A DNA stretch of 64,000 nucleotides from Auricularia sp. M13 (lineage: Eukaryota; Basidiomycota; Agaricomycetes; Auriculariales; Auriculariaceae): positions 1,426,001-1,490,000 of the forward strand of contig CM073203.1 of assembly GCA_037042915.1 (NCBI GenBank). The letters are read 5' to 3'. Below are positions 1 through 28,600 of the stretch, in pieces (within the stretch, counting starts at the first letter, position 1; each line of letters opens with the position of its first letter). A model generated the notes under the pieces. It worked only from the letters and a program-made list of their open reading frames with translations, made no database searches and was not told where the DNA came from. The translations under genes and the position numbers were made by a program.

Positions 1-33
1 AATACGATACACTAGCAACCTCATTTTCTGACT

Positions 34-243
34 TGCGCACACATAGTTGTGACTTGCGCACACATACTTCTGACCTGCGCACGCACACCCATGACCTGCG
101 CACGCATGAGGAAAAGCGTGTGTTCAGAGTTTTGGACCCTGCGCACGCAAGTGAAAACCATGCGCACGCATTTTGAAAACTGCGCACGCAAGTTGTGTGC
201 ACGCAAAATTCTGCGCACGTGTGCGCACGCACCCTGGGCACGT
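34..243 (-). repeat. 21-bp periodic TGCGCAC array I
   Basis: About ten copies of TGCGCACRCA are spaced close to 21 bp apart. The 11 bp between cores vary. The TGCGCA core is itself palindromic. Orientation is opposite to arrays II and III. Confidence 0.85.
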
Positions 244-264
244 TTTTCTAGGGGTCCATTCCGC

Positions 265-371
265 TCCATCGCAGTCGGATTAGGCAGCCAACCTACTCAG
301 ACTACATACACCCATTGCAGACACCTCTCACTCCCCCAGACCAGTGTGTAGCACTTACCTGCCCATCACAG
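265..371 (+). repeat. Dispersed repeat, copy 1 (about 107 bp)
   Basis: This segment begins at CTCCATCGCAGTCGGATTAG and ends at CCTGCCCATCA. It is nearly identical to 15456-15562, with only a handful of substitutions. It forms part of the core between the two periodic arrays. The rest of the core (372-716) shows nothing I recognise. Confidence 0.85.
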
Positions 372-730
372 TGGTGACCACCGCAGGGAGTGGGAATCTG
401 CATTTTTAGGGTCACTACAGTTCCATTCTGGCCCGAGGAGGATCCGCTGCACAGCCGTCTTCCCATCCAACTGCGCCAAGTGCGTCTCAGCGAGGCAGAT
501 CCACCTCTCAGCCTTCTTCAAGCGCGCATCGAGCCTTACCAAATCGCGGGGAATCGACAGCGCATCGCCTCGACCCAGGACCACCGCATTCGGGCACCAG
601 GAACTTCGTTCACGCCCCATCGCCAACACTCAACCTCAGACGACTGAGACAAGTGCTCGGAGAGCTTCCCGAGAGCGCTGCAAATCGCCCGATTCTCACG
701 AGAGGTCGTCGGCTAGGGACCCCTAGAAAA

Positions 731-1001
731 CCGTGCGCAGGGTCCGTGCGCATCCGTGCGCAAGAATATCCGTGCGCAGAACTTCCGTGCGCAGGGTTAG
801 AACTTTCGTGCGCATGAGTTTAACTTTCGTGCGCAGGGTCCAAATGTCCGTGCGCACTTTTCAAAATCCGTGCGCAGGGTCCTGGTCATCCGTGCGCATG
901 AAATGTGCTTTCGTGTGCAATTTTCACAATCCGTGCGCAGGCTCCTGATATCCGTGCGCAGTTTTCACAATCCGTGCGCAAAGTACAAAATCCGTGCGCA
1001 G
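731..1001 (+). repeat. 21-bp periodic CCGTGCGCA array II
   Basis: About fifteen copies of [CT]CGTGCGCA are present, regular at 20-22 bp from 785 onward and tighter (10-17 bp) at 731-785. The spacers are not conserved except for weak echoes such as GGGTCC and TTTTCACAAT. Confidence 0.9.
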
Positions 1002-1680
1002 TGTGAAAAACATCAAAAATCTTTTGAAGATGTATATCATAGATGTATTTATGGCACTGTGTGCATTGATAGAGGTGCACATCTCTAGTGTCAACTATTT
1101 TAGATAAACTACTGTGCTACATGATTTGTTCGAAATTTCACTTCCACGTTAGTACAGGATCAGAAATATTCAGCCAGCATGTTGGTTTGTGTTCTAAGCT
1201 GATTTCCTGAAGAGGCTCTAAGTAGGTACTCATAACTCAAAAGATGTTACCCTCATACAGTTATGTTATGTTAGGTTAGATTAAGCTTGCTAAGGTCAGA
1301 ACTTATGTTATTTTGGTTCATGAATTCAGGAGTAATATCCTTTGCAGCCTGAGTAACCATGATTCACTCATCTACTAATAGATTCTAAGCCCTGATCCCA
1401 GTTTGGTCAAAAAATCTCAAATGAATTGTCTGGGTCAAGGAGAGACGAGACACGTGTTTTGGGCCGTGGAGTGGACCTGGAACAAGCCAAAGTTTGTTGT
1501 GTCTGCTCCACCACCTCTGTACCACAGAGGTGCTCACTTTCCTGCATCACACCACCATCCCGTCCCTTCAGATCTTCTTGTTGATTAGATGGGTTCCAAC
1601 CTCATCCTCACCATGCCATCTCACAGAGGGACTTGCACGCCCACACCATATTATACTCAAGTTGCTAGGATGTATTTTCT
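1002..1680. other. Non-coding stretch
   Basis: AT-rich sequence without a convincing coding region. ORFs here are short and unlike known proteins. Confidence 0.5.
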
Positions 1681-1681
1681 G

Positions 1682-1770
1682 TAGTTTGGACTAGTGGTTA
1701 ACATGTACATGTTCTTAATGGATTCGAAACACCCTCAGTTCAAATCCAGTCATAGACATCCATTTTGTGG
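1682..1770 (+). repeat. tRNA-like (SINE-type) internal promoter remnant
   Basis: TGGACTAGTGG at about 1687-1697 resembles a pol III A box (one mismatch at the Y position) and is followed by TTAAC. About 40 bp downstream, AGTTCAAATCC near 1738 resembles a B box. This spacing fits a tRNA gene or a tRNA-derived SINE. I could not fold a complete cloverleaf, so a functional tRNA is unlikely. Confidence 0.3.
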
Positions 1771-1946
1771 CACTCTACCTGTGTTTACTACATTCTGTAG
1801 TGTATTAACAAACTGCACTTGAGCAGTCAATTGCAACAAGACTTATGGAAATTGTTGGTGTTTGTTAATGAACTTCAATGAGTTCAATCAAGTCGCCTAA
1901 ATGTGCCAAAGTGAAAAAAATAATGCAGTTGTGCTTTATACAGAAT

Positions 1947-2185
1947 CCGTGCGCAACACACAAAATCCGTGCGCAGTGTAAGCATGTCCGTGCGCATGTC
2001 TACCATGTCCGTGCGCATGATTCTAACATCCGTGCGCAGGGTCCAAAATGTCGTGCGCACAAAATCACAATCCGTGCGCAGTCCTCCTTCATCCGTGCGC
2101 ACAGATTTACAATCCGTGCGCATGATTTCAACTTTCGTGCGCAGTGTGAAAAATCCGTGCGCAGTCCGTGCGCATCCGTGCGCAA
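1947..2185 (+). repeat. 21-bp periodic CCGTGCGCA array III
   Basis: Thirteen copies lie at about 1947, 1967, 1988, 2009, 2030, 2051, 2072, 2093, 2114, 2135, 2155, 2166 and 2176, with almost exact 21-bp phasing through the first ten. A short reverse-oriented cluster (TGCGCAC, GCGCAC, TGCGCAC) follows at 2358-2388, immediately upstream of the retrotransposon gag region. Confidence 0.9.
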
Positions 2186-2396
2186 CGTGCGCAACATGCG
2201 CGCGGAACTTGAAACCAGTAATTTGACAATATCTTGGCCAGTTTTTAAGGTTTGATAGGTTTGTGCACACAGACATGTGCGGGTAGGTGTAAGCTACTGG
2301 AATGACCTTCAACAATCATTCTAGGATGTCTGAACAGTCTTCTAGGGCAGGATTACTGCTGCGCACGGACCTCGCGCACGTGCGCACGGTTTTCTC

Positions 2397-3353
2397 GTGA
2401 CCCGTCGGCTAGCTCTCGTCGAAAGGGATCCACCAAACTCTCCTCAAGTTTCGCCGCTAGCAACACCACCAGCAGCCGCGACATTTGAGATAATTTCCCC
2501 GGAATCTCAGTCGCCGGAAAACCAAATTGAGCAGCTCGTTGACGAATCGTTCTTCGAGCCTTCCCAATTCGACACACCGTTGGAATCGCCAGAACTCCCG
2601 TCTATCGCGGATTTCCTTGAGCAGTTCAACGACAACGACCTTTTCTCGCTCACACGCGAACCAGAAGACCCTCAAACGCAGCACTCTCCGCGCGCTTTAT
2701 TCGAGCAATCGCCACCGCGCTCGCCGAGCCCGCAAATCGAACCGCAGATCTCTCGCGCACCGTCTCCAGCGCCACCGACTGTCAAAATGTCGACAACCAC
2801 CATGCCTCTTCCAAACGACAAGTCCGCCCCGCGATGGGACGGCGACTATCACACGCTTACTCAGTTCCTTCTCGACTACAAGCGCGTCGCCGACGCTGCG
2901 TCATATACGGATTATCAAGCCATCAAGGCTTTCATCAACTATATTCCCGAGTATCTGCGCGGGGATGTACAGAACTACGAGGAATTCAATCCTCCTCGCG
3001 ATCCCAAGCAGCCTGACGTGGATCCGAAGGGAGACTGGAATGCGTTCAAAACGCGGCTCTTCAAGGATTTCCCACGCGCGGTGCAGCACGAAGGCTACAC
3101 GCACCCCGAATTCTGGGAGTTTTCCGCGAAGAACTTCAATCGCAGCCTCAAAACGGAGGATGAGCTCGAGAGCTTTGCGCGAGAACTGAGACGCTACACT
3201 ACCTTGCTAATCCGCGACGGGAACCTGTCCGCGGGTGACGCGGGTTCGGTATTCGAGGAGATACTGTTCAACAATCACGGTGAGCCTTTCCGAAACGAAT
3301 TGCACAGGCAGCTAGGTCGAAAAAAACACCTATACGGTGGACGAGGTGTTTGA
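2397..3353 (+). pseudogene. gag (capsid-like region) of the gypsy element
   Basis: About 318 codons are open. The N-terminal part is rich in Pro, Ser and Glu and probably disordered. From about residue 140 there is a capsid-like segment (PRWDGDYHTLTQFLLDYKRV... and LRGDVQNYEEF) of the kind found in basidiomycete gypsy Gag proteins. No ATG was required for the open frame; the first in-frame ATG useful as a start is near 2787. The frame is lost at a run of seven A residues (3320-3326): the downstream reading continues one frame over. This looks like a one-base indel rather than a programmed shift, because the shift needed is +1. Confidence 0.75.
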
Positions 3354-5133
3354 AGTCGCGCGAGAGTTTGTAAAGTACGACAAGAAGAAGAAGTTCTTCT
3401 TGCCCGAACTCGCCGCACTCGTCGCGAACCGCGACGTCCTAGCTCTAGCGACTGCAGCTTCCACGAGCAGTTATCCCGCCGAGTTGGCAGCCACGCTCGC
3501 CCGTCTCTCGCTGCCACGTGAGCCCATGCTCGCCGCGATGACGGCACAAGCCTCGTTCGTGAGCACGCCCGCGCCTGACCCGAACGTCGCCATAATGCAG
3601 CAGGTTTTGCAAAGCCTGCGGAACCTGACCGCGACGATCGCGACTCAGTCAGCAAACGCTGTGAACGGAAACGCAGGTCAGAACTCACCTCGCAACAACG
3701 GCGGTGCACCGCGCGCGCAGCGCTTCTCCCGAAACGACGGGAACGGAGGCGGCTGGGGACCTATGGAAATGTCAGGCGAGATACGGTGCTATTACTGCGG
3801 CGGCCCGCACATGCAGCCCAGCTGCGAGATGCTGAAGACGGACCTAGCGCGCGGGCGTTGCATTCGCAACCAAATGGGCTACGTCGTTTTTCCCAACGGA
3901 GACCGCATCATCCAGTCGAGGGAGATGACGGCCGCTCAACGTGTCGACCATTTCAACAAGATCTACCCGGAATTTGAGCAAAAGGCGAGATCGGGCGCGG
4001 CAGCAGCAATGCTGGTGCACGTTGCGGACTCACCGACATTGCCAACGTTTAACAAACCGACGTTCGAGTCCAGGGAAGCTGAGGAGGCGTGGCAGGACTT
4101 TGCCAAGCGCGAGGTGTTCGCCTACGAACAGAAACGCCAGGAAGTCGAAGGGACGCCGCGTCGCGAGGGGCTGCGCAGCCGCAACCGGTCAGTCGAGCGC
4201 AAGCAAGAGAGCACGCGACGGGACGGACCAGGCAAAGACAAGGGGTCCAACGGGGAGCCCAAACGCACCGTACGGTTTGAGGAGAAGAAAAAGGCTGAAG
4301 ATTCTGCAAGTGCCGCGCGGCGCGCGTTTCCGTCAGCCACGATCGAGGAGGTCGAGGATGATGACGCGCCCAAGCCTCGCCCAAGCCTGCCAGCACAGCA
4401 GGAGCGCCCGCAGTACAAAATCCAGTCACCCTTGGAAACCGAAGGACTGGGAAAGCTGATCAGCGAGCGCATTCTCAATACGAAGGTGGTGCTCACCGTC
4501 AACGAAATTCTGGCCCTGTGCCCGAGCGTGCGGCGCTACTGGAAGGACAGTAGCGCGTCCAGGCGCATCAGCGTCAACCTTATCGAGGACGGCGGTGCGA
4601 GCAAGGTCGCGCAGGACGGCAGTGCGCAAGTGTTCCGGTACCGCGTGCTGGGAGAGGAAGACGTCTCGCGGGATCAGATCTCTGCCGAGCGAATCCTGCC
4701 TCTCCGGTACCTGGATTGCCGGATCGGCCGGATAGAGGCCGAGGGTGTCATTGACGGCGGCGCGCAAATTGTTATCATCAGCCAACGATTGTGGGAGAGC
4801 ATTGGCAAGCCCATCGACCCGACGCACATTATGAAGCTCGAAGCTGCCAACAACACTAACTCGCGCACTCTGGGCCTGCTGGCCAATCTGGCCGTCAACA
4901 TCGCCGACATTGAATTACTGCTCCAGGCGCACGTTGTCGAGGACGCTCCGTTTGACCTGTTGCTCGGACGACCCTTCTTCACGCTCGGCCGTACCATCGA
5001 GGAGACGCGCGCGCAGGGTGACTCGTTCATCACCATTCACAACCCGAATTCGGATCTGGCGGCTAAGATACCAACGAAGGAGCGCAAAGTCATACCGCGC
5101 CCGCCGCCGATGTCTCAGCAGCCGGGTTTTTGA
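3337..5133 (+). pseudogene. gag C-terminus, zinc knuckle and aspartic protease of the gypsy element
   Basis: This continues gag in another frame; there is no ATG at its 5' end, as expected for a frameshifted continuation. A zinc knuckle of form CX2CX3HX4C occurs at 3789-3827 (CYYCGGPHMQPSC). A charged linker follows. A retropepsin-like domain is near 4720-4985, with DGGAQ in place of the usual D[ST]G motif start and a later FDLLLGRPFF flap-distal motif. Whether DGG is still catalytic is uncertain. The frame ends at TGA 5131-5133, directly after a GGGTTTT heptamer. Confidence 0.8.
5124..5133 (+). promoter_or_regulatory. Candidate -1 ribosomal frameshift site (GGGTTTT then TGA)
   Basis: In the protease frame the codons read CCG GGT TTT TGA. 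The heptamer G GGT TTT (5124-5130) fits the X XXY YYZ slippery rule, and a -1 slip would enter exactly the frame that encodes reverse transcriptase. A downstream stimulatory RNA structure was not verified. An ordinary indel could produce the same picture. Confidence 0.4.
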
Positions 5134-7112
5134 GGAGGGAAGGACGCGGCGATGTCAGGCAGGCTGAGTCGCCTGCCGCGTACCTTCCCGAAATTTTCTT
5201 TGGCTTGGCTCATCATATTCAGGACACGGTTTCAGATTACAAGTGCCCCACGAACGCGCAACTCATCAGGCGACCCCTCATCCAGCTCACCCTCGCTACG
5301 GCTCTCTACGGTCTGATACGTATCTCGACGCTTGTGTTTGTCAACTACCGCATGCTCGCAATGTTTACGCTCATTGTGGGCGCGTTCTTCTTGTACGACT
5401 GCGCGACGCGCTCAGCAACTCGCGACGCGCTCTTCACGGCGTCGATCGGCTTCATTCAGGTGAAAGACAGCTACGATACGGTCAACGCTGAGGCTTTCGA
5501 GACGGATGACGACACGTTTTTTGTGTACATCCAGCCTGAAGCGCTCGCGCCGCCTGAGAACGCGGCAAATTGTGTCTCTCAGTTCACTACGGGCGCTCAG
5601 CAGCCAAACGGAGCTCGAGCTGCTTACTTGGATCGCAAAATGGAGTGCGACCGTCGCGAGACTCACGATGCGACACCGGCGCGCGTACCGTCAGGTCTGA
5701 AACCAGACAGCGGCCGCCCGAAGAAACCATACAAACCGGTTGCGAAGAAAGTGAAGCCAACATCGGACCGTATGCCTGAGGAATATCAGGTGGTGCGTAA
5801 CCGACCCGTGGATTGCATGAAGGATCTGCCAGAGTTGCCCGCGCATCCGCCGAATTGGACACCGCACACGGAACACCTTACGCGCGAGCAGATGGATGAT
5901 TTCCGCTTGGTCAAAGACGGGTTCTTATGGCCGGAGGAGGTCAAACTGTTCGAGTTTCTCATCGATTACCATCAGGACGCTTTCGCTTGGAATGAACTCG
6001 AACGGCGACGCTTTCGTTCGGACTACATCCCTCCGATCAAATACCCTGTGGTACCTCACGAACCCTGGGCTGACCGCAATAGGCCTATTCCTCCGGGCAT
6101 TCGCGACGAACTGATCAAGCTGCTCAAGGCGAAAATCGACGCTGGCGTATACTAGCCGTCGAGTTCATCTTACAGATCCGGCTGGTTTTGCGTTGTCAAG
6201 AAAGATGGGAAATCGCTGCGCATCGTTCACGACTTGCAGAAGCTGAACAGTGTCACCATACGAGACGCGGGGACGCTGCCATCGCCTGACGAGTTCTCAG
6301 AGAACTGTGCAGGACGGACATGCATTGGAGCGCTCGATCAATTCAGCTCCTTTGACTTACAACTGGTCGATCCCGCCTCGCGCGACTATACGACATTCCA
6401 GACGCCTATAGGACCGTACAGACTGGTGTCGTTACCCATGGGATGGACGAACTCAGTCGCAGTACAGCATGGGAACCTGACATTCATTCTCGCGCCGGAG
6501 ATACCTGACCACATCCAAGCCTTCATCGACGACGTACACCCGCTCGGCCCGAGGTCTTATTACTACAACGACAATGGCACGTTTGAGACAATTACTGGAA
6601 ACGATGGCATACGGCGGTTCATCTGGGAGTACGCCGGAATGTTCAATCGCGTCGTGCAGCGTTTGAGGCATGCAGGGGCTTCGATCTCAGGCAAGAAGGC
6701 ACATATATGCGTCCCAGAGACGGTGGTCACAGGCTATCATGTCTGCTACGAGGGTCGCAAACCGCTGCAGCATAATACGCAGCGCGTAGCTGACTGGCCA
6801 GCTTGCGAGAATCAGTCGGACGTACACGCATTTCTAGGCACCGCGGGTCTCTCTCGCATATGGATCAAGGACTTCGCGCTCATCACCAGACCGCTCACTA
6901 CGCTCATCAAAAAGGACGTCCCGTTCGAATTCAGTGACGACTGCCATGCGGCAATGATCGCGCTCAAGGAGGCCGTCGCCTCGGCGCCCTGCTTAAAACC
7001 CATCGATTACCGGTGTGGGCGCGAGGATATCCTAGCCGTGGATTCCTCGGTGATTGGGGTAGGCTTTATTCTCCTGCAGCTTGGGGAAAAGGGCGAATGT
7101 TACCCTTCGCGA
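5130..7112 (+). pseudogene. reverse transcriptase and first half of RNase H (gypsy pol)
   Basis: One frame runs from the slippery site to the insertion point, broken by TAG at 6153-6155 inside RT. Upstream of the stop lies the typical N-terminal RT stretch (YPVVPHEPWADRNRPIPPGI); downstream are VHDLQKLN, the FDLQLVD region (usually FDL-D-R type) and the catalytic FIDDVH motif near 6521-6538. Thumb and connection follow, then the start of RNase H (ILAVDSSVIGVGF near 7030-7070). The ORF is cut at 7112 by foreign sequence. The stop plus insertion make this a clear pseudogene. Confidence 0.9.
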
Positions 7113-9506
7113 TCACCAACTCCTAAGTCGGTTCCTCAGTGGGGAGGGTCTTCAGATTGGACAACCCGGTTTGTTCCGAGAAAGCTCTCCGTAACCTCCC
7201 GAGCATACAAGATGACCACACCACCGTCGTACCCCCTTCTCTCACTAAGATTGAAGATCACAAACACTAGTTCTTTGATTACCTCAGCTGTATGGCACGG
7301 GCATTGAGTCTCTCCCTTGAATTTTGTCTTCAATTGTGACATTTGCATCAGGGGATCAAGAGTACATCCAATTGCCGCCTAAGCCACCCGAGGCTCCGTA
7401 TAACATGAACAGCCAAGTAAATAAAACAGCCAAATGCTGGGTGCATAGCAGTCCATAGCCCGATTCAAAACCAATTCAAAATACCCTGTGCTACCAGCGC
7501 ACAGCGCCGCTTGGACTTGACTGGACATGCTTCATTGCAGGAATATCCCATGCTCGCCACAGGTCGATATATTTCAACCTGAGATACTCTTGTGCGCTTT
7601 ATGTGCCCCCACACAATATCATCTCAACCAGCATGCTCTGAACGACTGGTCTCCCCTTTCTTGGGACGGAAGTTCAGGTGCGACGAGCACTAGCAGCCTA
7701 GGACGGGTTCGCTGCACCGTGACTGTCATCAGGGGCATTCTTGGGTGCAACGAGGATGTTACAATGTCTGACCATCGTCTATATATATTCCGCCGGAGGC
7801 ATGGAACTGGAAACTTGAAAGTGCATCAAAGCCAGGAGAATTCAGCGTGGTTCGGCAGACAGTCACACGTCCGTGCGGTACTTATTCAGCTCATCCTAAA
7901 TAATGGCCATATTGCCCAAACACAACTTTCATGTCCGCCAGTCTAATACTTAAATGTATTACCATCGTAAAACATTTGGAGCCTGCAGGCGCGCCGGACG
8001 TCAGCTACATCACACGAGAACCAATGATGGTGAGCAGATCGAAATATGTTGACGCTAGACGCGTCGGATTTACACTGGCAGAAGGAGTTCATACATGCGT
8101 TGGAATCAATGGGCCCGTCGCGAACATTGCACATCTGGTTTACTCGCGTTTGATCGGTAATACTTGGCGGGCCGCGGGCGAGCAGAGAGAACCGCTCGCC
8201 CGCGGCCCGCCAAGCGCAGACGAATCGCAATGATCATTATCCTCGGGCAAGGCGAAGATGGCATGGTACTCAAAGCGGGAGGCCGAGGCGGGATATCAGG
8301 GCAGTGCAGTCAAGTCCTACAGTCCATAGAAATTGTCCCCGTAATACACAGTCAAACGAGGGTTGATCTGTGCCAAACTAGACAAGGTGCATCATGACCA
8401 CTCAGATAGTGACTGACAAAAGCTAGGCTGCACAGTGGAGGGCAGACGCAGATTGCCTACAATAACACTGCGTTAGACCAGTGCGCACAGTGTCTGGGCG
8501 TGGTTTCCAGTAGCAGGAAGCGTTCGCCTGATCGCAAGAGCCAGATGCTGGGTCTGCAGAATCATGAGATTAATGTGTTACGATATCGAGCCCGTCATGA
8601 TTAATGTACCACATACGGATGTGTCTGAGCTCCCGACTCCGGCACCTGGTAATCGTGGCGCTGGGATGGCAGAGCAGGATGCACCGATCGCGAGCCAAGT
8701 GAAGCTTGAAGAGCAGGTATAATGGAACGACTGTCTGCCATTAAGGCTTGCGAAGGAAACCAAGGAGCACCGAGAGCCAGATAGAGCGGGGTCCTGCAAT
8801 ATCGAGACTGATGTGCACCATTGACCGGGCGGCCGAGAGATTGAGCAATATGGAGGAGCCAGTACTTGTCAACTAGGAGTTATTGCAGCTCGCAGAGTTC
8901 CAGCACAAGCATTCCATCTCAAAAGTTAGCAGCAGCTCCAGGATTGCTACGGAGCTCGGTTTGGGTAGATGCACTGGTTGAAAATGACCGCGTATAGTCG
9001 AAGACAGAATCCAGACTTGGACAACGTAAGTGCGAGGGTGGGGGAGACGCTAGGCACTACACATGGCGGTCAAAGCAAGCACGTTGGATGGAGTTCGGCC
9101 CGGGACCGCATTACTTCCGACCTTTGATTATCGAGAGATAATCAATGGTCGTACGGAGTGTGCGCCGCAGGTAGGTGTGATGTGAGCGAACAAATTAATA
9201 CCGTGTGCACTCGTCGTGCGGAGTTAGCTCTATCGTCTGAGGAGTCGACCTGCAAATCTTCCTTGCAACCTACACCTGTGATGGCAAGCCGGACTCCTCA
9301 TCGGTGTAGTCTCCTGCCTGCCAGTGTATGCAAGATGCAGAACAACTCCTCCACTGTGCGCAACGACGTCACGCTGCTCAACCCGTGCAAATTTGCGATA
9401 CTTAGACGAGGCCATCACAGTAATTGCGAGACGCGGCTCGCGTACTGCACCGTTCTATGCAACTGGGACGTCCCTTAGGAGGCGGTGACTGCCGCTAGCG
9501 GCGCTA
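7113..9506. mobile_element. 2.4-kb insertion inside the RNase H domain
   Basis: The RNase H reading stops after CGA at 7110-7112 and resumes in the same codon phase at 9507 (CGA again). Near its ends the insert has TCACCAACTCCTAAG (7113-7127) and, on the opposite strand, TCACCGCCTCCTAAG (ending at 9488), a 13/15 inverted match typical of terminal inverted repeats. The right copy lies 18 bp inside the junction, next to the 12-bp palindrome GCCGCTAGCGGC (9491-9502). No transposase or other recognisable protein is encoded, so it is probably a non-autonomous or decayed DNA element. Confidence 0.6.
8163..8214. repeat. Perfect 21-bp GC-rich inverted repeat (hairpin)
   Basis: The arm 8163-8183 (core GGCGGGCCGCGGGCGAGC) is exactly complementary to 8194-8214, with a 10-nt loop AGAGAGAACC. 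It sits inside the insertion in the gypsy RNase H gene. Confidence 0.9.
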
Positions 9507-11423
9507 CGATATGATAGCATTGCGTGGAACGAGCGGGAAGCCCGCTACTCTCAGCCGAAACTCGAACTCTATGGGCTCTGGCGAGCGCTACGCGCAGTTC
9601 GCATCTGGATTGTTGGTCTGCCGTTGCTCTCAGTAGAGGTCGACGCAAAGTTCATAAAGGGCATGCTCAACAACCCGGACGTCCAGCCGAACGTGGTCAT
9701 TAACAGGTGGATCGCCGGTATCTTGCTATTCAATATCAAGCTCGTACATGTCTCAGCGGACTTGCACAGAGCTGCCGACGGTCTCTCTCGGCGACGATCT
9801 TCGCCGCTTGACCCTCGCGAGACGGACGATCTCGAAGAATGGCTTGACTCTGCACTAGGATTATGGGCGTCAGCATGGTTAGACAGACCCGCACGCTCCT
9901 TGCCACCGGTAGGACGCTCAGGAATTGCCATTGCTTACCCAGAGGTTTCTCTACCGAGTGAGTACTACAAGTGCCCCGCGGATGGTCCGCTGGCCAGAAT
10001 CTTGGCGCTGTCTCTCGACAGCGATCCTGGCACGCCGGAACAATCCGTCGTTGTGCCGCCACGAACAGAGCATTTGCGGCGAAAAGACCTGGAACTACAG
10101 GAGATCTTTGACTTTCTGAGCACGCTGGAACCTCCGATTTACTGGCCAAAGGAGCATCTGCACACTTTTATTCATCGCGCCAAGAGGTTCTTCATCCACG
10201 ACGATTGACTCTGGTGCCGGGACGATGGTGGAAGGCACAGACTGGTCGTCATTACCGCGGCCAAGCGCATGGAAATCATGACATGTGCACACGACGATCT
10301 AGGGCACAAGGGTGCCTGGCCCACATGCGCGCAGATCCGCACACAATTCTGGTGGCCGGGACTTGAGGCAGACGTTCGCTGGTATTGCGCAACATGCGAC
10401 GCGTGCCAGCGTAGGCAGACATTCAAATTACACATTCTGCCAACTGTTGCGGCTGTCGCAACTCTCGTCCAGAAGTGCTACATGGATACGATGCACTTGC
10501 CGGCTTCAAACAAATACAAGTACGTAGTACAAGCCCGGTGCTCGCTTTCAACGTACCCAGAATGGAGAAAACTCGTCAAGCAGACCGGAGAAGCGATCGG
10601 CCGCTTCATTCTCGAAGAGATTCTCTGCAGGTGGGGCTATTTGGCGGAAATTGTCACGGACAACGGTACACCCTACATCGCCGCTCTCGAATGGTTAGCA
10701 ACAAAGTACGGCATTCGGCATATCAAGATCAGTGGCTACAATTCGCAGGCTAACAGCGCGGTGGAATCCAAGCATTACAGCGTCTGAGAGTCGCTCGTCA
10801 AGATATGCGACGGTGACATTTCCAAGTGGTCTCAATACATTCACCTGGTGTTCTGGGCCGAACGCGTGACTATACGCCGGGCAACCGGGATGTCGCCGTA
10901 CTATATGGTACACGGCGTGGAACTCGTTTTACTGCTGGATCTACAGGAAGCCACCTTCTTAGCTGGGCCAATGCAGCCGTACATGTCCACGACGGATCTC
11001 ATCGCTCTCCGCGCGCGACAGCTCGAGCGGCGGACGGAGGACCTCGAAGATGTCCGCGCGAAGGTACGGGACTCACGCTGGAAAGACTGGGAGGAGTTCA
11101 TGCGCAGGCACGCGCACACGATCAAAGACTTCAACTTCGCGCTGGGGAAACTTGTTCTGGTTCGAAACACCCGAATTGAGCACGACCTTAGTCTCAAGAA
11201 GGTCGAAGATCGCTATTGCGGACCTATGATTGTGGTCAAGCGCAGGATGGGCGGCGCTTACACCCTGGCCGAACTCGACGGAACTGTTTCAATGCTGCGC
11301 TGCGCGGCGTTCCGCGTCATTCCGTATTATCCGCGCTGGGAACGCGAGTATGACGTGTCAGGAATACTAGAAGAAGCTCAAGAGCAACTGAAGCTCATCG
11401 ACAAGATCAACAACAGCAAATGA
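9504..11423 (+). pseudogene. RNase H remainder and integrase (gypsy pol)
   Basis: The frame resumes with NEREARYSQPKLELYGL and the RNase H region through HRAADGLSRR. An in-frame TGA at 10206-10208 follows. Integrase has an HHCC zinc-binding module (10290-10410, ending CATCDACQRR) and a D,D,E core: YMDTMHLP, IVTDNGTPY and NSQANSAVESKH. A second TGA (10785-10787) lies just after the catalytic Glu. Both TGA codons stand where relatives of the family usually have Arg, so CGA to TGA transitions are the simplest explanation. The C-terminal part to 11423 has a chromo-like or GPY/F-type tail that I could not define further. Confidence 0.88.
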
Positions 11424-11595: not shown

Positions 11596-13127
11596 TAGGG
11601 TTCTGTGTACAATGCCACGTTTTAAACACGGGTTAAAAAACAGTGTTTAAAACATTGTTTTAAAACAGACGTCCGAAAATTGGCTGTTTAAAACCAAAAT
11701 ACAGTTCAGTTGCAGGACCTCTGAGACATGTGTTGGAGGCACAGATTTTGTCTTTGTGCCATTTCCCGCTATATCCTAGCAGCCTCCATTGCTGGTAGCA
11801 TATGAGTTAGCTGCATCTCGCATCTCACACAGGTGATCAGTGAGAGATTCGTTCAACTGCAGGAGCTGTCTCAGTGCTGTAAGTAACTAATTAGCAAGAT
11901 CTCACAAGAGAACAGCATTCTTCCAGTGCCCAGACCTGAGAGTGTTGTTAAACATCTAGTATAGAAAGTGGCTCATTCTGACCTATATTCTCACAGGTAG
12001 AAGTTTACAACATTACATCGAGCATTAAAGTTTCAAGTACCATGCATTGCCAATCATACCGGCAGGTATCTGTGATATCCTAGGGTATGAGGAGGTACAG
12101 TGGAGGACATGGAGATTCGAACACCCCGATTTTTTACTCCAGTAAATTTACAATTCCACAACATTGGGTAGTACCTTCCTCCCACCAATGACATGTGTTG
12201 ATGACAAGTAGCCAAACTTTAACGTGGTGGTGGATTGATGTCGATTGCATTACTCTGTCACGAGGTGCAGCAGCAAGACTGATATGACTATATGCGAATT
12301 GCACAGCCCGGCAAATTTCATCCAAGCCAGGTAGCACTGAGACCTGTTGCGCATTGGTAAATGAGAAGGTACACTACATGAATACACTCAAGGAATCTCA
12401 TTTGCAGACTGCTTCATGGCTCAGAGCCATGACAACTGTGAAACACAGAATGCGCAAATTTTGTATACACTCTCAAAGCTCAACTGATTAGCTTCTGGAC
12501 ATGGCACTTGCGGGTCACAATCCATGTCTATATATCTCGTTGTTTGCAAGGTATCATGACCTGAGACTCTGTCTAGAGCAGATTGCGTAGTGTTCAAATT
12601 TTGCGCAGTCTGTGTTTCACAGGTGTCGTAGCTCTGAGCCATGAAGCAGTCTGCAAATGAGATTCCTTGAGTGTATTCATGTAGTGTACCTTCTCATCTA
12701 CCAATGCGCAACAGGTCTCAGTGCTACCTGGCTTGGATGAAATTTGCCGGGCTGTGCAATCCGCATATAGTCATATCAGTCTTGCTGCTGCACCTCATGA
12801 CAGAGTAATGCAATCGACATCAATCCACCACCACGTTAAAGCTTGGCTACTTGTCATCAACACATGTCATTGGTGGGAGGAAGGTACTACCCAATGTTGT
12901 GGAATTGTAAATTTACTGGAGTAAAAAATCGGGGTGTTCGAATCTCCATGTCCTCCACTGTATGCCTGGGCAAATTTGACTGGAAGGTTGCTTTTTCTAA
13001 GCTTGTCTCGATGTTTCTAATGCATTACATAAGCTGTGTTTTAAACACTGTTTTAAACACCTGTTAAATAACGGGTTGGTTAAAAAACATGTTGAGAATA
13101 GCTCGGGCATTTTACACAGAACCCTAG
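11596..13127. mobile_element. Non-autonomous hAT-like element, 1532 bp
   Basis: The ends are inverted copies of TAGGGTTCTGTGTA[CA]AATGCC (20 of 21 positions agree), continuing loosely into blocks rich in GTTTAAAAC. An 8-bp duplication, GAGCGGGA, flanks both ends exactly; eight-base duplications and a TAGGG-type terminus are characteristic of the hAT superfamily. No transposase ORF is present, so mobilisation would need a helper. The middle is filled by a large inverted repeat (12096-12461 against 12597-12962). Confidence 0.8.
12096..12962. repeat. Large inverted repeat, 366-bp arms, about 135-bp loop
   Basis: The left arm 12096-12461 starts TACAGTGGAGGACATGGAG and the right arm 12597-12962 is its near-exact reverse complement, with scattered substitutions and small indels. 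The arm ends carry GTGTTCGAATC, which resembles a pol III B box, but no matching A box was found. Transcription across this region would give a long hairpin. Confidence 0.9.
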
Positions 13128-13144: not shown

Positions 13145-14523
13145 TTACTCCAAGTGGCAGAGATGTCCAAATCGCTGTTTGAAGTCATTGGCTTGATCCA
13201 CAAGCATTGTCACATGGAACGCGCACAGCTGTGGATCGTTGCCAAGGAGGCCGTCCACGTTCTGCAAAAGTCGCGCAACCGGGGCCTTACGTTCCTCGTC
13301 CCACTCCATGCCAGCTTCACGGAGAGTTTCCAACATCTCGCGGCGGACGCGCAGTGGCACTATAGCATCGTCAAGAACTTGCTCACATCGGTCGAAGACG
13401 AGAAGCTCTCGGCCAACGGTCTGCGGGCGCTGTCAGCCAGAAATCGGAGCGCGCGCATAGCACTCACCGTCAGAATCTCGATATCCCTCAGCTGCGAATC
13501 AATTTCGGCGATCGTGAAGAAGCCATCGTCCAGGCTGGGCCAGTTTGCGGAAGGCCACGCCGTGTTAAAAGCCGCGCAGAGCAACGGAAAGGCGAGGACG
13601 GTTTCGATCTGGTACTCTTTCATGTCCAGGAACCAGCACCACTGTTCTTTGGGCAGGTTCAAAGGCTCTCTACGAAGCAGAACGAAAGCGTCAAGCACAG
13701 CGTGCGCCACGATGTCCATCAGCGCGCCATGGCCGTTCATGTTTGCCGAACGGTACTCGCGGGCGATGACGAGAAGCTCGGGCTGGCGAATGTGGTCCTC
13801 AACGAAGGCGGGAATCTCGTAGCCCAGGTCGGGGACGTCTGCGCAATCGGCTGCGCTCGCAGTGGTATCGTCGAACGAACCTCCACGCATCCAGTGGTAA
13901 CGCAGGTCGGGCGCTGGTGTCTCGAACGAAGACAGCGAACGGAAGCCGGTCAACTTGGGTGCCGCGTTGTACTCAGGAGAAGCATGCGGGGATGCATTGG
14001 GGCAGTAGGCCGGGCCGTGGTATACGAGCCCACAGCGCGCGCAAGGAAAAGCAAAGACGGCTCGAGCCGCTGGTTGGCCGTCCGGATCGCCGGATCTGCG
14101 GGCCATCAGCGCGGGATCAATTTCAGCAATCCACGAGCTCTCAGCGTCCGGCAGCTGCTTGCTCGACGCTCATAGCGGACAATTGACGGATGGCGCGCTC
14201 GAAGTCACTGTTTCCATCGTCGCCGTGGATGGACATGGTGTCCACAGTTATGGCACTGTCAAGGCTTTCGTACATCAAAATGCTCGAAATGGGATGGCGT
14301 ACTCTGACTCGCGACGTCCGCCATATGTCATACGGAACCGACGATAGTCCTCCAGTCGGGCTGCACCCTGACGACAAGCCGTGGCACGAAAGGCTTCAAT
14401 AACATCGGGATTCAGGAACGTGGCGACGTATGCCTGGGGAATGTCCATAGAGGCTGAAGTTCGTTCTGATTTGTTCAACTTTCTCGGTTTATGTACGCGA
14501 CACGGGGGCGGTCGCGATCTCAA
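13145..14523 (-). pseudogene. Broken hypothetical protein gene
   Basis: Several minus-strand ORFs in different frames read as one decayed protein: an N-terminal piece beginning MDIPQAYVATFLNPDV (14448 down to 14275), a central piece (14106-13360) with CARCGLVYHGPAYC, and a C-terminal piece (13360-13145) beginning VPLRVRREML. The central and C-terminal pieces abut at about 13360 and need a single-base shift to join. I do not recognise the family. The hAT-like element lies 10 bp beyond its apparent 3' end. Introns could account for some breaks, but the shift at 13360 shows no splice signals. Confidence 0.4.
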
Positions 14524-15420: not shown

Positions 15421-15455
15421 GATGTCATACCTCGGGAAATCCCATCATGTCTATT

Positions 15456-15562
15456 TCGCTCCATCGCAGTCGGATTAGGCGGCCAACCTACTCAGACTTC
15501 ATACACCCATTGCAGACACCTCTCACTCCCCCAGACCAGTGTGTAGCACTGACCTGCCCATC
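15456..15562 (+). repeat. Dispersed repeat, copy 2 (about 107 bp)
   Basis: Near-identical to 265-371. Here it sits immediately next to the truncation point of the non-LTR element ORF2. Confidence 0.85.
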
Positions 15563-15896
15563 AGTATCCATTCTGGATGTATGCGAATGGGGTCTCCAGC
15601 ACCATGACGTCCGTGCTGGAGAGGTTCTGACGCCAAACACACTCGAGCGAACGTCGCACGATTGCAGCGATGCCACCCCACTGCTCTCTCAGATTGTCAG
15701 GCAATGGGCACGGGTTTGACACTATCGTGTAGCCTGCGGGCAGAGGCAGCAGATCGTGCTGTCCTGGCAGTAGATGCGTTTCTTGCAACAGGACTATATC
15801 ATACACCGATAGCAGGGCTCGAAACGATGTGTCTGTAAGTTTAGGTGTAGTTGGCCGTGTACATTCCATGACAGAACGCGTACTACCATCCCACAT
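15561..15896 (-). pseudogene. Non-LTR retrotransposon ORF2, N-terminal endonuclease fragment
   Basis: About 111 codons encode the start of an apurinic-type endonuclease: the motif IVLLQETHLLP and a later GGIAAIVRRSLE with TDVMVLET are typical of the endonuclease-exonuclease-phosphatase fold in L1/Tad-like ORF2 proteins. The reading ends at 15561 inside the fold; the His catalytic region and all of reverse transcriptase are missing. The start lies 30 bp after the stop of ORF1, the usual spacing in these elements. Confidence 0.75.
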
Positions 15897-17198: not shown

Positions 17199-18090
17199 CG
17201 TCTGTATCCCTGTCTGTATCCCTGGTAATATCTAGGGCTATATACCACGCCTCCTGGGGCCGTCAACTCCGACTGCGCTGACCCCTCTCGCTAGTCTCAG
17301 GCCACCGGCACCTTTTTAGTACAGCGCCGTCGCACAACAACAGTAAGACTAGGCACACTCGGTAGGATCGGGTGCCTGGCACTTGTTGGCGCGCTCCGTC
17401 TTCACGTGCTCGCACAGGCAGCGGGACATATGTTGTCCACCAACTTCAATGCAGGCGAGGTCCTAGAGGCTGCCGTCCCAGCCGGACAAGCACAGGCGGC
17501 ACCAAGGATCCAACATGCGACACAGTGCAAGGCTCCTGCCTGCAGGTACACGGCTACCCAGGCAATCACATAAAATGTGGTAATTTGGCCGATTAATCTG
17601 CTTAGGTCTTTGCATAACAATTCTCACGTCTTTCCGTGCAAACACAAAAATCGTGTCTTCCAAAGACCTCCGAGATGTTATGGCTATGACGCCACTCCGG
17701 ATTAAAAGACCGAGTGCTATTGGTAAGCAGAAAAGCATGGCACAAAAACCCGCGTCCTGCTCAAAGGAAGCCAAAGATAAGACCTGGAAACCAACAGTGA
17801 AACAAGTTGTAAAAGAATATGTGTCTAAGATGCTCTGCGCACTGCGAAATACCGAGCACTTGTATCGCAAATGATAACCCTGCTGAGTATTGCCGGAGTC
17901 ACTCGGCCAGTGAGCCCGTGTTTGGCCCCACCGCAAGACGATGCCGTGGTCATTCGATTACAACATTTTCGTCTTTGCTCCGCAGACCTAATATGCGTTC
18001 AAGTTGAACACACGGGAGGTGATCTGCAAGATACATTTCTTGTAATCTGTGATATCACATCTTTCAGGTAATCAGATGGGTAGCCATGTA
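17199..18090. other. Non-coding stretch
   Basis: Probably the 5' untranslated region of the non-LTR element near 17230 and then unclassified sequence. A degenerate relative of the 18094 tandem unit (GCAAGGCTCCTGCCTGCAGG) is at about 17526. Confidence 0.4.
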
Positions 18091-18091
18091 A

Positions 18092-18205
18092 CCAGGCTCC
18101 CGCCCACAGGTAGTCAGGCTCCCGCCCACAGGTAGTCAGGCTCCCGCCTGAAGGTAGTGCAAGGCTCCCGCCCGCAGGTAATCAGGCTCCCGCCTGAGGG
18201 TAGAG
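18092..18205 (+). repeat. Tandem repeat, about 23-bp unit, five copies
   Basis: The unit CAGGCTCCCGCC[CT]NNAGGTA occurs five times (about 18093, 18115, 18138, 18162 and 18184), spaced 22-24 bp. Confidence 0.85.
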
Positions 18206-18519
18206 CAACACTTCCATCTGCAGATACACCGGGCAATCATAGCGCAAGGCACCCAGACAGAACAACGGTTGAGACCACCGCTGCCACAGCAACAGTATGC
18301 TCGCCGCCATCATCTTCAACGGCCAGCCAGCCATGAGCACCGTCGAGCTGTAAGGTGTTCTTCTGGCACTTGCCGCTCCACTTGCCCACGTCAAGCATGT
18401 TGTTCATGCGGTACCATGGCACCCGGTTGTCCTGCGCGCTGGCGCCAACGCAGCCATAAAGCACGAGCCCCGCCTGCTGCTGCACCTTGCGCGCACGCGT
18501 GTGGTGGGCCCGCACCACC

Positions 18520-25618: not shown

Positions 25619-28600
25619 ATGCGCGAGCGGTGTAGATGTGGGAAGAACTACTCCCCTGCCCAGCTGTTACAACACCAGAGGACCTGTGGGCCCCGCAGAA
25701 AGAAGCTACAAGCACTCCTCGACCGCCAGGCTCATAAGGCATCCCGTGACGCAGCATCTACCTCGCGCAACAAGAAGCGGGCTCCAACGCACACTCCTTC
25801 ACTACCTGCAACGCCTTTCAGGTCTTCTGCCCTCGAATCTGACGACTCTGAGCATTTCCCGGTGCGTATCCCACTACCTGCTGCTCGGCGCAGCCATCTC
25901 ACCAAATGAATTAGATCGACACATCTACTGTGCTCAACAACGACACAGAGATAGAGCTTGCTACACAAACAGCGGCTCCGGAGCTTCCATCTGTCCGTCA
26001 TTGCACGCATCACCGTATTCCGCGCAAGTTTAGGGACATCGTTCCCGAGCCTTTGCCTCCTGCTCAGCCTGCAGTATCTGGAATACAGCGTGTTATCCTT
26101 CGCGTCTGTGAGCCATTCAAGACAGCGGCCAACGCTTTTGGACTCTTTCGTGTCTTTCGTCGCCAACCCGAGTCTGATCCGAAACAGCGTACCCTGACTG
26201 CTGAATGTGTGGCACTGTCAGAGCCTGTGCTCTCTGCAGGTTGGGCTCCCTATCCCAATCGCAGCGCCGCATTGTTCAATCACTGGTTTTGGAACGATGG
26301 CCTGGCTAATAAATCTCGGGAAAGCCGCGCTTCGCTGCTCGATGTTATCCTTGACCCTCGCTTCGTGCTCGACGATCTCCGCGGAATCAACAGGACAAAT
26401 TTGGACAAAGAGGTCTCTGGAGACTTGGGTGGCTTTGGAGACGGCTGGCTGGCTGAGACCCTGACCATTAACATCCCTGGCGGCAAGGGGATGCGTGCGG
26501 CCGATGTCCCCGGGTTTCAGTTTCGCCCGATCGTACCATTGCTACGGACTATCCTCAGCACAAGCCCTGGCGTCGAAACGGACTGGTCTTGGACGCCGTC
26601 CACACTCATGCATCGAGCAGCAGACGGGAGTGAGACCCGAGTCTCAGGCGAGGTCTACAACTCTCCCCGAACACAGCGCCTTCACGACGAAGTCCAGCGC
26701 CTACCGCGCGAGGCCGGAGACGAAATGGAGCGACGAGTTGTCTATCTCATGCCCGGCTCAGATGGCACACATCTCGCTCAGTTCGGTAACGCCAGTGAAT
26801 GGCCGGGGTTTCTTGGCATCGGAAACCAGAGCAAGTATGTTCGGACAAAGCGCGACTCGCACGCTATGCACCACTTTGCTTCATTCCCGAAGGTATATCG
26901 CACTGAGCAGTTTCTCGGGCACTCAGCTGACGCCCATGCAGATACCTGACAGCCTGAACGATGAAATCAAGTGCATGAACGTCAAGAAGTCGGCTAAGAA
27001 GCAAATCCTCACTCAATGCCGTCGAGAGTTGATGCACGCAGCCTGGGCCAAGATCATCGATGGTGACTTTCTTCATGCATACAAATACGGCCTTGTCCAC
27101 ACCTGTCAGGACGGCGTCGAGCGACGATTCTTCCCGAGGTTCTTCACGTACACCGCCGACTATCCAGAGAAGTGCACTTCGGGGCGATTTGACGTTTTCT
27201 CTGTCTCACTAACCAAATCCAGGATGCTTATCGCAACACTCCGCGAGAATGGTGAATGCCCGTGCCCGAAGTGCGCCGTCAAGAAAAGCGATGTCCATCT
27301 GGTCGGGTTGGCAACAGACAGGGCAACGCGAATACAGAGTGCACGCGAACACAGCAACACCTGGACTAGAACTATATCTCAGGTCGGCGAATGGATCCGC
27401 AAGGGAGTATGCGGCTTGACTAGTGTTCTTGTCGAGAACAAGCTGAAACTGCATTCGTGGGTTGCTGTCCAGGTGAGGGAGGGGCTGCTCCTGCGCATAC
27501 AGTTCTTACAATCCGCGCAGAACGCTTTCTCGGTGCTGCGAGAGATTGACCCAGGATTCTCCATATTTAAGCTATTCGCGCCCGACCTGCTTCATGAGTT
27601 TGAGATTGGCGTTTGGAAGGCCGTATTAATGCATCTGCTCCGCATCCTCCAGTCTGTCGGCCCCCATCTGCTCGAGGAGATCGATGAGCGGTACGTCTCG
27701 AACTCACATCAGTGAGACCGCGTTACGGCTCACATACTGTGCCATGCAGTTTCCGTCTAACTCCAGTATTTGGGCGATTTTCCATACGACGTTTTGCCAA
27801 CAACGTTTCCGAACTGAAGCAGCTTGGAGCGCATAATTTTGAGGACATTCTGCAGGTCTTGCACATCCATCTCGCATCCGATCGCTCAAGCTGATCCTCC
27901 ATAGTGTGCGATCCCCGTTTTCGAAGGGCTCCTCCCGGAACCGTTTAATACGCTCGTGCTCGACCTCCTTTACACCCTCGCAGAATGGCAGGCACTAGCC
28001 AAGAGCCGAATCCATACCGAGTCGACCTTGAAGGACTTCGAGAAACTAACGTCTCAACTCGGCGACGAGCTGAGGCGCTTTGTCAACGAGGTCTGCCCAA
28101 ACTTCAGTCCGAAGGAGTTGCCGCGCGAGAAGCAGGCGAGGGTCCGACGCGATGCTCGCAAGGGACCTGCGCAGCAGGCGCCGTCCGCGGAACAAGGCCC
28201 AAAGGAGAAGACATTCAATATGAACACCTACAAGACGCACTCGCTGGGCTACTATCCCGCATTCATCCGTGAGTGCGGAACAACCGAGTCTTATTCAACA
28301 CTGTTGGTGAGTGCGCTTTACTGCAACTTCGGCTGATTTTGCTGAGACGGCCTCTCGCAGGTTGAGAACTCCCATCCGGAACTCAAAGCGCGCTACAGGC
28401 GGACGAATAAGCGCAACGCGTCTCGCCAGATGGGAGAAATCGAGCGGATCCAATCCAATACGCGCCACATCATCCATTCGATGGAGGCGACGCGTTTATC
28501 GGCGACTGAGCAAGGCGTTGACGAAGATGGGATCCTGCCCACTGCTGAGGAGCATATCACCATCAGCAAACGGCAGCGTCCTTGCGAAGCTTATGATATC

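Follow-up and report, generated by a model that had tools for sequence, protein, structure and literature searches.

Helically phased arrays at the ends of two neighbouring, probably Mutator-like transposons mimic a foldback element in Auricularia sp. M13

A 64-kb window of the Auricularia sp. M13 genome (the whole stretch of DNA analysed here) opens with two arrays of the motif TGCGCA facing each other across several hundred base pairs, which raises the question of whether positions 34–1001 form one mobile element. The window contains TGCGCA 81 times (37.7 expected), and 0/100 shuffles attained this count; nine sites lie at 34–227 and 14 at 734–1000. The earlier note had read the two arrays as the arms of a foldback transposon. 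We instead put a probability of roughly 70% on the joint reading that 34–1001 is the junction of two non-autonomous transposons of Mutator-like (MULE) type, members of related families that inserted independently and are opposed to one another within a Ty3-like retrotransposon, and that the arrays are putative protein sites. The features of the region are presented in Table 1.

Table 1 Features at and around the junction (window coordinates).
Feature	Position	Strand	Remarks
End of a family-2 non-autonomous transposon	1..257	-	Outermost letter at 257; the rest lies upstream, beyond the window edge
Subterminal array of family 2; box TRCGTGCGCA when read from 257 inward	34..227	-	
Family-2 outer terminus TTTTCTAGGGGTCC	244..257	-	Arm of the 14-bp inverted repeat; 48 exact genomic copies
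Putative 3' end of the retrotransposon 5' LTR	258..368	+	Left part of the supposed core
Putative leader and start of the coding region, same retrotransposon	369..716	+	Right part of the supposed core
Target site duplication GTCGGCTAG	left 708..716, right 2404..2412	+	9 bp, both flanks
Complete family-1 non-autonomous DNA transposon	717..2403	+	1687 bp; occurs full-length at numerous loci
Left terminal inverted repeat GGACCCCTAGAAAACCGTGCGCA	717..739	+	19/23 identical to the right end
Left subterminal array, box TYCGTGCGCA	734..1000	+	14 TGCGCA and one TGTGCA
Family-1 interior	1003..1945	+	No long ORF; CpG-poor
Right subterminal array	1950..2193	+	14 boxes, direction as in the left array
Outer boxes beside the right terminus	2360..2386	-	Opposite direction
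Right terminal inverted repeat	2381..2403	+	Paired with 717..739
Rest of the interrupted retrotransposon	2413..11423	+	gag-like, RT/RNase H and integrase frames; Ty3-like by inference

The letters flanking TGCGCA do point opposite ways: TGCGCACG is seen in the left array and CGTGCGCA in the right one. The inverted repeat at the inner edges of the arrays (TTTTCTAGGGGTCC at 244–257 and GGACCCCTAGAAAA at 717–730) is perfect and exactly 14 bp long. The enclosed core, given before as 460 bp, measures 459 bp between the repeat arms, but its sequence is that of a retrotransposon and not of an element core. When the window was compared with 19 further stretches of this genome, 717–2403 reappeared as a unit (e.g. 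in L017, L018, L023 and L027), and 1–257 came up again as one end of another unit (e.g. in L013, L028 and L030). The range 34–1001 therefore truncates two separate elements: the right-hand one extends to 2403 and carries a second array in the same direction as its first, and the left-hand one extends upstream of the window. The duplication near the supposed foldback lies between its arms and far outside 1001 (708–716 and 2404–2412), and belongs to the right-hand element. The inverted pair of arrays, whose fate in other genomic copies had been named beforehand as decisive, is absent elsewhere: among the exact genomic copies of the terminal 14-mer, a list read by eye, the window has the sole two that lie within 10 kb and face one another. 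A single foldback transposon, in which short direct repeats form inverted arms to either side of a 460-bp core, would account for the opposed arrays and the perfect repeat at their inner edges. Its arms, however, come from two families found separately in the genome, its right arm is a complete element with its own target site duplication (TSD), the two main arrays inside that element are not inverted, and its core, which is retrotransposon leader, has an LTR end of 115 bp as the only other genomic match found. On the strength of the element limits, the TSDs and the copies across the genome, this reading was rejected as extremely improbable. No one element with two long inverted arms of short repeats was found at the locus, and the opposite arrays are evidently the ends of two neighbouring transposons, with the 14-bp inverted repeat as their common terminus.

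The longest ATG ORF within the family-1 element is 130 aa. Its ends read GGACCCC... and GGGTCAC... (GG...CC) and form the 23-bp inverted repeat with 19 identities. The interior gave 41 genomic matches, many of them full-length, at 95–99% identity, and element length was 1.66–1.71 kb in most paired copies (1.52–2.25 kb over all). Both main arrays are co-directional in the family; beside the right terminus, one or two boxes point the other way. An LTR or solo-LTR reading of 717–2403 was considered, as a gag-like ORF directly follows, and rejected because the element starts with GG and not TG and because the same unit lies at many sites with 9-bp duplications. A box-B-like stretch seen by eye in the interior prompted a search for a tRNA-derived piece, of which ARAGORN reported none, and a search against Rfam returned solely a sub-threshold miRNA match, on the right array. 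A remnant of ~50 bp (L063, C9:780936-780983), in which the right terminus is joined almost directly to the left, was assigned to family 1 by its terminus and is evidently an extreme deletion derivative.

The sequence between the two elements was traced to the host retrotransposon. Positions 254–368 and 15449–15563 aligned by blastn in direct orientation with 110/115 identities (96%), both ending in ..TGCCCATCA; the downstream LTR copy runs on without family-2 sequence at the point matching 257, and no third genomic place matching 254–368 was found. Between the two LTR-like copies lie a gag-like frame, an RT/RNase H match, an rve match and an integrase zinc-binding domain. Among the Pfam matches on these frames, Integrase_H2C2 scored over the cut-off and RT_RNaseH_2 and rve under it; the gag-like frame (2397–3353) had no Pfam match and is called gag by position only. 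Joining the flanks at the 9-bp TSD, with 717–2403 removed, produced one open frame running from the core into ORF 2397–3353. Given the repeat copy at 15449–15563 and the joined open frame, 258–368 is most simply interpreted as the end of the LTR and 369–716 as the leader plus the start of gag.

Other repeats and frames were also found in the window. These included a hAT-like non-autonomous element at 11596–13126 (TIR TAGGGTTCTGTGT, 8-bp TSD GAGCGGGA on both sides), within which a palindromic repeat with relatives in other loci is nested (~12098–12963), a 248-aa ORF on the reverse strand (13360–14106) between the retrotransposon integrase and the presumed 3' LTR end, a tandem repeat with 22/46-bp periods and a CAGGCTCCCGCC unit (18088–18208), and a frame with a Plavaka transposase match (26495–27715, E 2.9e-9).

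The family-2 end in the window (1–257) is 97% identical to L013:4839-5095, the end of a complete family-2 copy with the TSD TCGACATAC, and the same family-2 match was found in L011 from L011:4622 onward. Family-2 elements are 1.70–2.42 kb long, with insertions in some copies, and have a 23-bp TIR (18/23 identical) and, like complete family-1 elements, one array close to either end; the boxes of their right array mostly keep the same direction (110 versus 41, with 30 readable both ways). No TSD was found for the window copy. The nearest upstream family-2 fragment, L045 (C11:1407094), is in the right order and was considered as its partner end, but was rejected because the flank of L045 is unrelated to the right flank ATTCCGCTC. 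The far half of this copy was possibly separated or rearranged, through exchange between copies or rearrangement. Inside the L013 copy, a palindromic repeat of ~320 bp (L013:3872-4193), also found on either strand at many further places in the genome, is a separate short palindromic element.

We further analysed the arrays themselves. For the window copies, units were chosen by the six letters at their centre, one decayed base being allowed. The conserved box spans 10 bp and reads TYCGTGCGCA for family 1 and TRCGTGCGCA for family 2, with information below 0.7 bit on either side. Unit-to-unit identity within arrays was 0.91–0.96 in the boxes versus 0.28–0.31 in the spacers, which is the level expected by chance and bears out the variability of the spacers reported before. 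The step of 21 bp, described as near-constant, is mostly 20–22 bp, but steps close to the termini are 13, 10, 16 and 15 bp (right) and 31 and 10 bp (left); steps of 41 and 43 bp correspond to decayed sites. The right family-1 array followed a period of 10.42 bp (resultant 0.95) reached by 0/1000 random-gap arrays, the left array the same period (resultant 0.77; 2/1000), and the family-2 array a period of 10.50 bp (resultant 0.76; 41/1000, weak taken alone). Phase near 21 bp was equalled by 0, 0 and 10 of 1000 random-gap arrays (right, left and family 2, respectively). This null is compatible with tandem duplication as the origin of the arrays, against which the unlike spacers argue. With a 10.4–10.5-bp period, chance-level spacers and a shared register, proteins bound at each TGCGCA would line up on one face of the DNA, as the earlier note had proposed.

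The register is shared between the families as well. Measured from the terminus, 11/11 boxes of the family-2 copy L013 fall within 1 bp of one among 15 family-1 boxes, with 86/88 identities in the eight-letter core and 0/11 at position -3. Spacer identity between the two was 69/121 (0.57) versus 0.29 for non-matching units, the first four spacers overlapping neighbouring boxes; restricted to the seven regular units it fell to 36/77 (0.47) versus 0.35 for other units, so homology between the families is clear near the terminus and weaker towards the interior. A MAFFT alignment of 40/46 left ends (those with at least seven sites) placed a one-unit gap in family 2 and gave 100/112 core, 69/129 spacer and 1/14 position -3 identities. 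The register between the families thus holds in either alignment.

In the 46 elements for which a left terminus was found, position -3 was C/T in 547/589 family-1 boxes and G/A in 354/356 family-2 boxes. The 42 family-1 exceptions amounted to one to three per complete element, one in L063 (a tie) and five at one L025 terminus, which we take to be mislabelled as family 1 because its mutated terminus is family-2-like. The larger unit count, chosen by TGCGCA plus CG on one side, is informative only at -4, -3 and the outer positions. Phased triplets of boxes numbered 108 C-type and 66 G-type, with none in the reversed control. Those listed (100 of the 108 C-type and 66/66 G-type) sit, as judged by eye, at places of families 1 and 2; the one exception noticed was a G-type triplet at C10:2432254, which has family-2 spacers and lacks a listed terminus. 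This distribution bears on whether the boxes might be sites of a host transcription factor or chromatin protein that the elements exploit and do not themselves encode. No array-bearing autonomous element was found in the assembly (nor was a binding protein), as such a host protein would allow, but the near-confinement of the listed triplets to the two families tells against it and the existence of two box versions in two families is left unexplained, making a host origin unlikely.

To follow decay after insertion, 16 full-length family-1 copies were used of the 20 with paired ends; L012, L016, L031 and L044 were left out for insertions, deletions or divergence. Transitions in the left array affected 31/956 cells at CpG sites versus 12/3610 at other sites, an approximately tenfold difference; the corresponding counts were 25/907 versus 1/3086 in the right array and 22/414 versus 121/17028 in the interior. 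This excess fits the decay that methylated CpG would undergo. Each array nonetheless holds 29 CpG, with observed/expected ratios of 1.36 and 1.53 compared with 0.24 in the interior (1003–1945) and 1.08 in window 14001–64000. Post-insertion variation was no less in the family-1 box core (53/2704 cells) than in its spacers (31/3180) and about equal in family 2 (58/1845 versus 78/2427), and hence selection on the boxes was not apparent after insertion. As inserted boxes were kept no better than spacers, their conservation must have acted in the copied lineage and not in the dead copies. Mean identity among the 16 family-1 copies was 0.979, and one pair was identical, which suggests recent activity.

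These data also speak to the idea that the arrays grew within a transposon by slippage, as passive minisatellites that serve no binding partner. The 21-bp tandem organisation, some gains and losses of whole units between copies and the lack of excess box conservation after insertion all agree with it. Slippage, however, would copy spacers along with boxes, whereas here the spacers are at chance and the boxes 0.91–0.96 identical; the -3 difference spans units with unlike spacers, at both ends; and the CpG complement of each array has been kept despite the tenfold transition rate seen at CpG in the left one. We consider passive growth quite unlikely.

The insertion signature was surveyed in the 34 elements for which both ends were recovered (20 of family 1 and 14 of family 2). 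Excluded were 12/46 left termini without a right terminus in their stretch and right termini occurring alone (L015, L021, L026, L033). Each family occurs independently across the genome. Perfect flanking duplications were present in 24/34 elements (16/20 in family 1, 8/14 in family 2), 22 of exactly 9 bp and two of exactly 10 bp, and absent in 10/34. MULE TSDs are given as 8–11 bp in one account (PMC6446971), a range into which 22/34 elements fall at 9 bp and 2/34 at 10 bp, and the 23-bp terminal inverted repeats lie at the short end of the 14–500 bp stated there. TSDs of 9–10 bp together with GG..CC ends point to Mutator-like elements. Against this stand TIRs of only 23 bp with 18–19 identities, short where many MULEs have long ones, and the 10/34 elements with no TSD.

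Six MULE-domain loci were found in the genome (L046, L047, L048, L049, L064 and L065), with short frames in L064 and L065. Of the four loci with long frames, three (L046, L048 and L049) showed a 9-bp TSD with 14-bp termini at no more than four mismatches, which shuffles produced at 0.02 each; the same three gave no 8-, 10- or 11-bp hit and one 7-bp hit each, near chance (0.36–0.60 expected). Their left termini all start with GGA, as do the right termini of L046 and L048, that of L049 starting with GAC. No such match was found at L047, L064 or L065, and the signature is thus shared by three of the six resident loci. The L049 frame alone scored 22.5 bits for MULE, under the Pfam cut-off of 27.6, with SWIM over its cut-off. 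Among the best 120 of 133 matches to its transposase, the top relative was from Auricularia subglabra (47% identity), and those with an organism name come from agaricomycete fungi, pointing to an agaricomycete as the probable host. Family-1 and family-2 arrays and termini were absent from the 7–8 kb around each of the six loci, and no arrays were found in the three other MULEs examined (in L049, on the only side with room outside the frame). The array-bearing locus C7:2280313-2287912 has, in its L029 part, two frames of at least 200 aa, one without a match and one with a DDE_3 match, which we take to be a Tc1/mariner-type remnant. No Merlin/IS1595 transposase domain was found in the genome. 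Taking the TSDs, the GG...CC ends and the signature of the resident MULE loci together, families 1 and 2 are best assigned to the MULEs.

Mobilisation of the same elements by another superfamily, above all KDZ, gains some ground from abundance, as at least 149 KDZ matches, many of which are parts of a single gene, were found versus six MULE matches, and from position, since three KDZ matches lie 1.0–1.4 kb outside family-1 ends (C10:1809699, C7:3299619, C1:2336489). KDZ TSDs, as reported in PMC12730594, are 7 bp for Kyakuja, which has CA..TG termini, and 8 bp for Dileera and Zisupton, whereas the TSDs here are 9 bp in 22/24 and 10 bp in 2/24 cases, with GG..CC ends. Two of the three neighbouring family-1 copies (L039 and L043) have perfect TSDs, and so resemble plain insertions next to KDZ sequence; L044 has none. 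The KDZ matches near family-1 elements are probably nests of transposons. Mobilisation of the two families by KDZ or another superfamily is improbable.

Under the MULE assignment, a transposase supplied in trans would recognise the ends, cut the element out and re-insert it, a 9-bp stagger at the target giving the 9-bp duplication. The arrays would serve as landing strips of high avidity, each box, TYCGTGCGCA or TRCGTGCGCA, being read by a protein, and with boxes one or two helical turns apart many copies of it could sit on one face of the DNA. This protein would most likely be the transposase or an accessory protein of the autonomous partner, and it might assemble the ends or keep these CpG-dense ends free of silencing. 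That the boxes of the two families differ at one position throughout would be expected if each family follows its own version of the protein. The boxes and their phasing suggest that the arrays are putative sites for a sequence-specific protein, either a transposase or a VANC-like anti-silencer; by analogy, the candidates may include a transposase (as in Galileo), a TNPA-like accessory protein and a VANC-like anti-silencer. A methylation-sensitive or anti-silencing role is plausible, given a CpG-rich box and methylation-type decay. The fullest version of this scheme, in which a sequence-specific recognition or anti-silencing system of the VANC kind, encoded by an element, arose independently in fungi, has two orthogonal specificities that non-autonomous elements now parasitise, and builds a protein filament along one DNA face of the CpG-dense ends, is a tentative extension that we hold to be somewhat unlikely.

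Repeated motifs near MULE ends are already known, from Muta1 and Tm1. Muta1, a MULE of Aedes aegypti, is described with nine copies of a 12-bp repeat separated by 3–4-bp spacers (PMC5225508). According to the same source, it and other Ae. aegypti MULEs have 9-bp (or 8-bp) TSDs, short motif repeats just inside the ends and many non-autonomous derivatives, features that recall the present families, but the Muta1 repeats lie in 145-bp inverted TIRs, whereas the family-1 arrays are co-directional, with 11-bp spacers and a ~21-bp step, and occur in a fungus. The Tm1 Mutator/Foldback elements of root-knot nematodes are likewise reported with mostly 9-bp TSDs, varying numbers of a ~14-bp end motif and non-autonomous members, but with the repeats in inverted arms, unlike the main arrays here (PMC3169594). 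In the VANDAL MULEs of Arabidopsis, a short motif is repeated in non-coding parts in versions that differ between related families, and the VANC-motif units are described as evolving together (PMC5735166, PMC10398659). The arrays studied here, too, consist of a short tandem motif in non-coding parts with family-specific versions, which is a likeness of working and not of membership. VANDAL elements are stated to have absent or short TIRs (PMC6446971) and encode VANC, whereas TIRs are present here and no coding copy was found; helical spacing is marked here, and in the VANDAL papers the word 'spacing' is absent from PMC5735166 and the words 'spacer' and 'interval' from PMC10398659.

Outside the MULEs, the repetitive ends of Galileo (P superfamily) were proposed to give specificity to a THAP transposase with a short site; Galileo belongs to another superfamily and is credited with two further sites, compared with some 20–30 boxes per complete element here, which are known from sequence (PMC3688188). 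En/Spm and other CACTA elements are described as carrying many subterminal motif copies, differing between subfamilies and read by a TNPA-type accessory protein, but with CACTA termini and 3-bp TSDs (ATA in the soybean element) in place of GG..CC ends and 9 bp (PMC2613891). In a literature search of titles and abstract openings, in which few subscription papers were covered, nothing was found on these boxes or on phased MULE arrays in fungi. Tentatively, then, what may be new in a fungus is that the arrays at the two ends are co-directional, that variable spacers of 11 bp go with a two-turn step, and that the box switches at one position between families.

Two adjacent insertions can mimic a foldback element, a trap for annotation. 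MULEs whose ends bear repeats have been described from insects, nematodes and plants. The arrays described here would offer a clean case, with scrambled spacers, a sharp box, helical-turn spacing and families that stand one box position apart.
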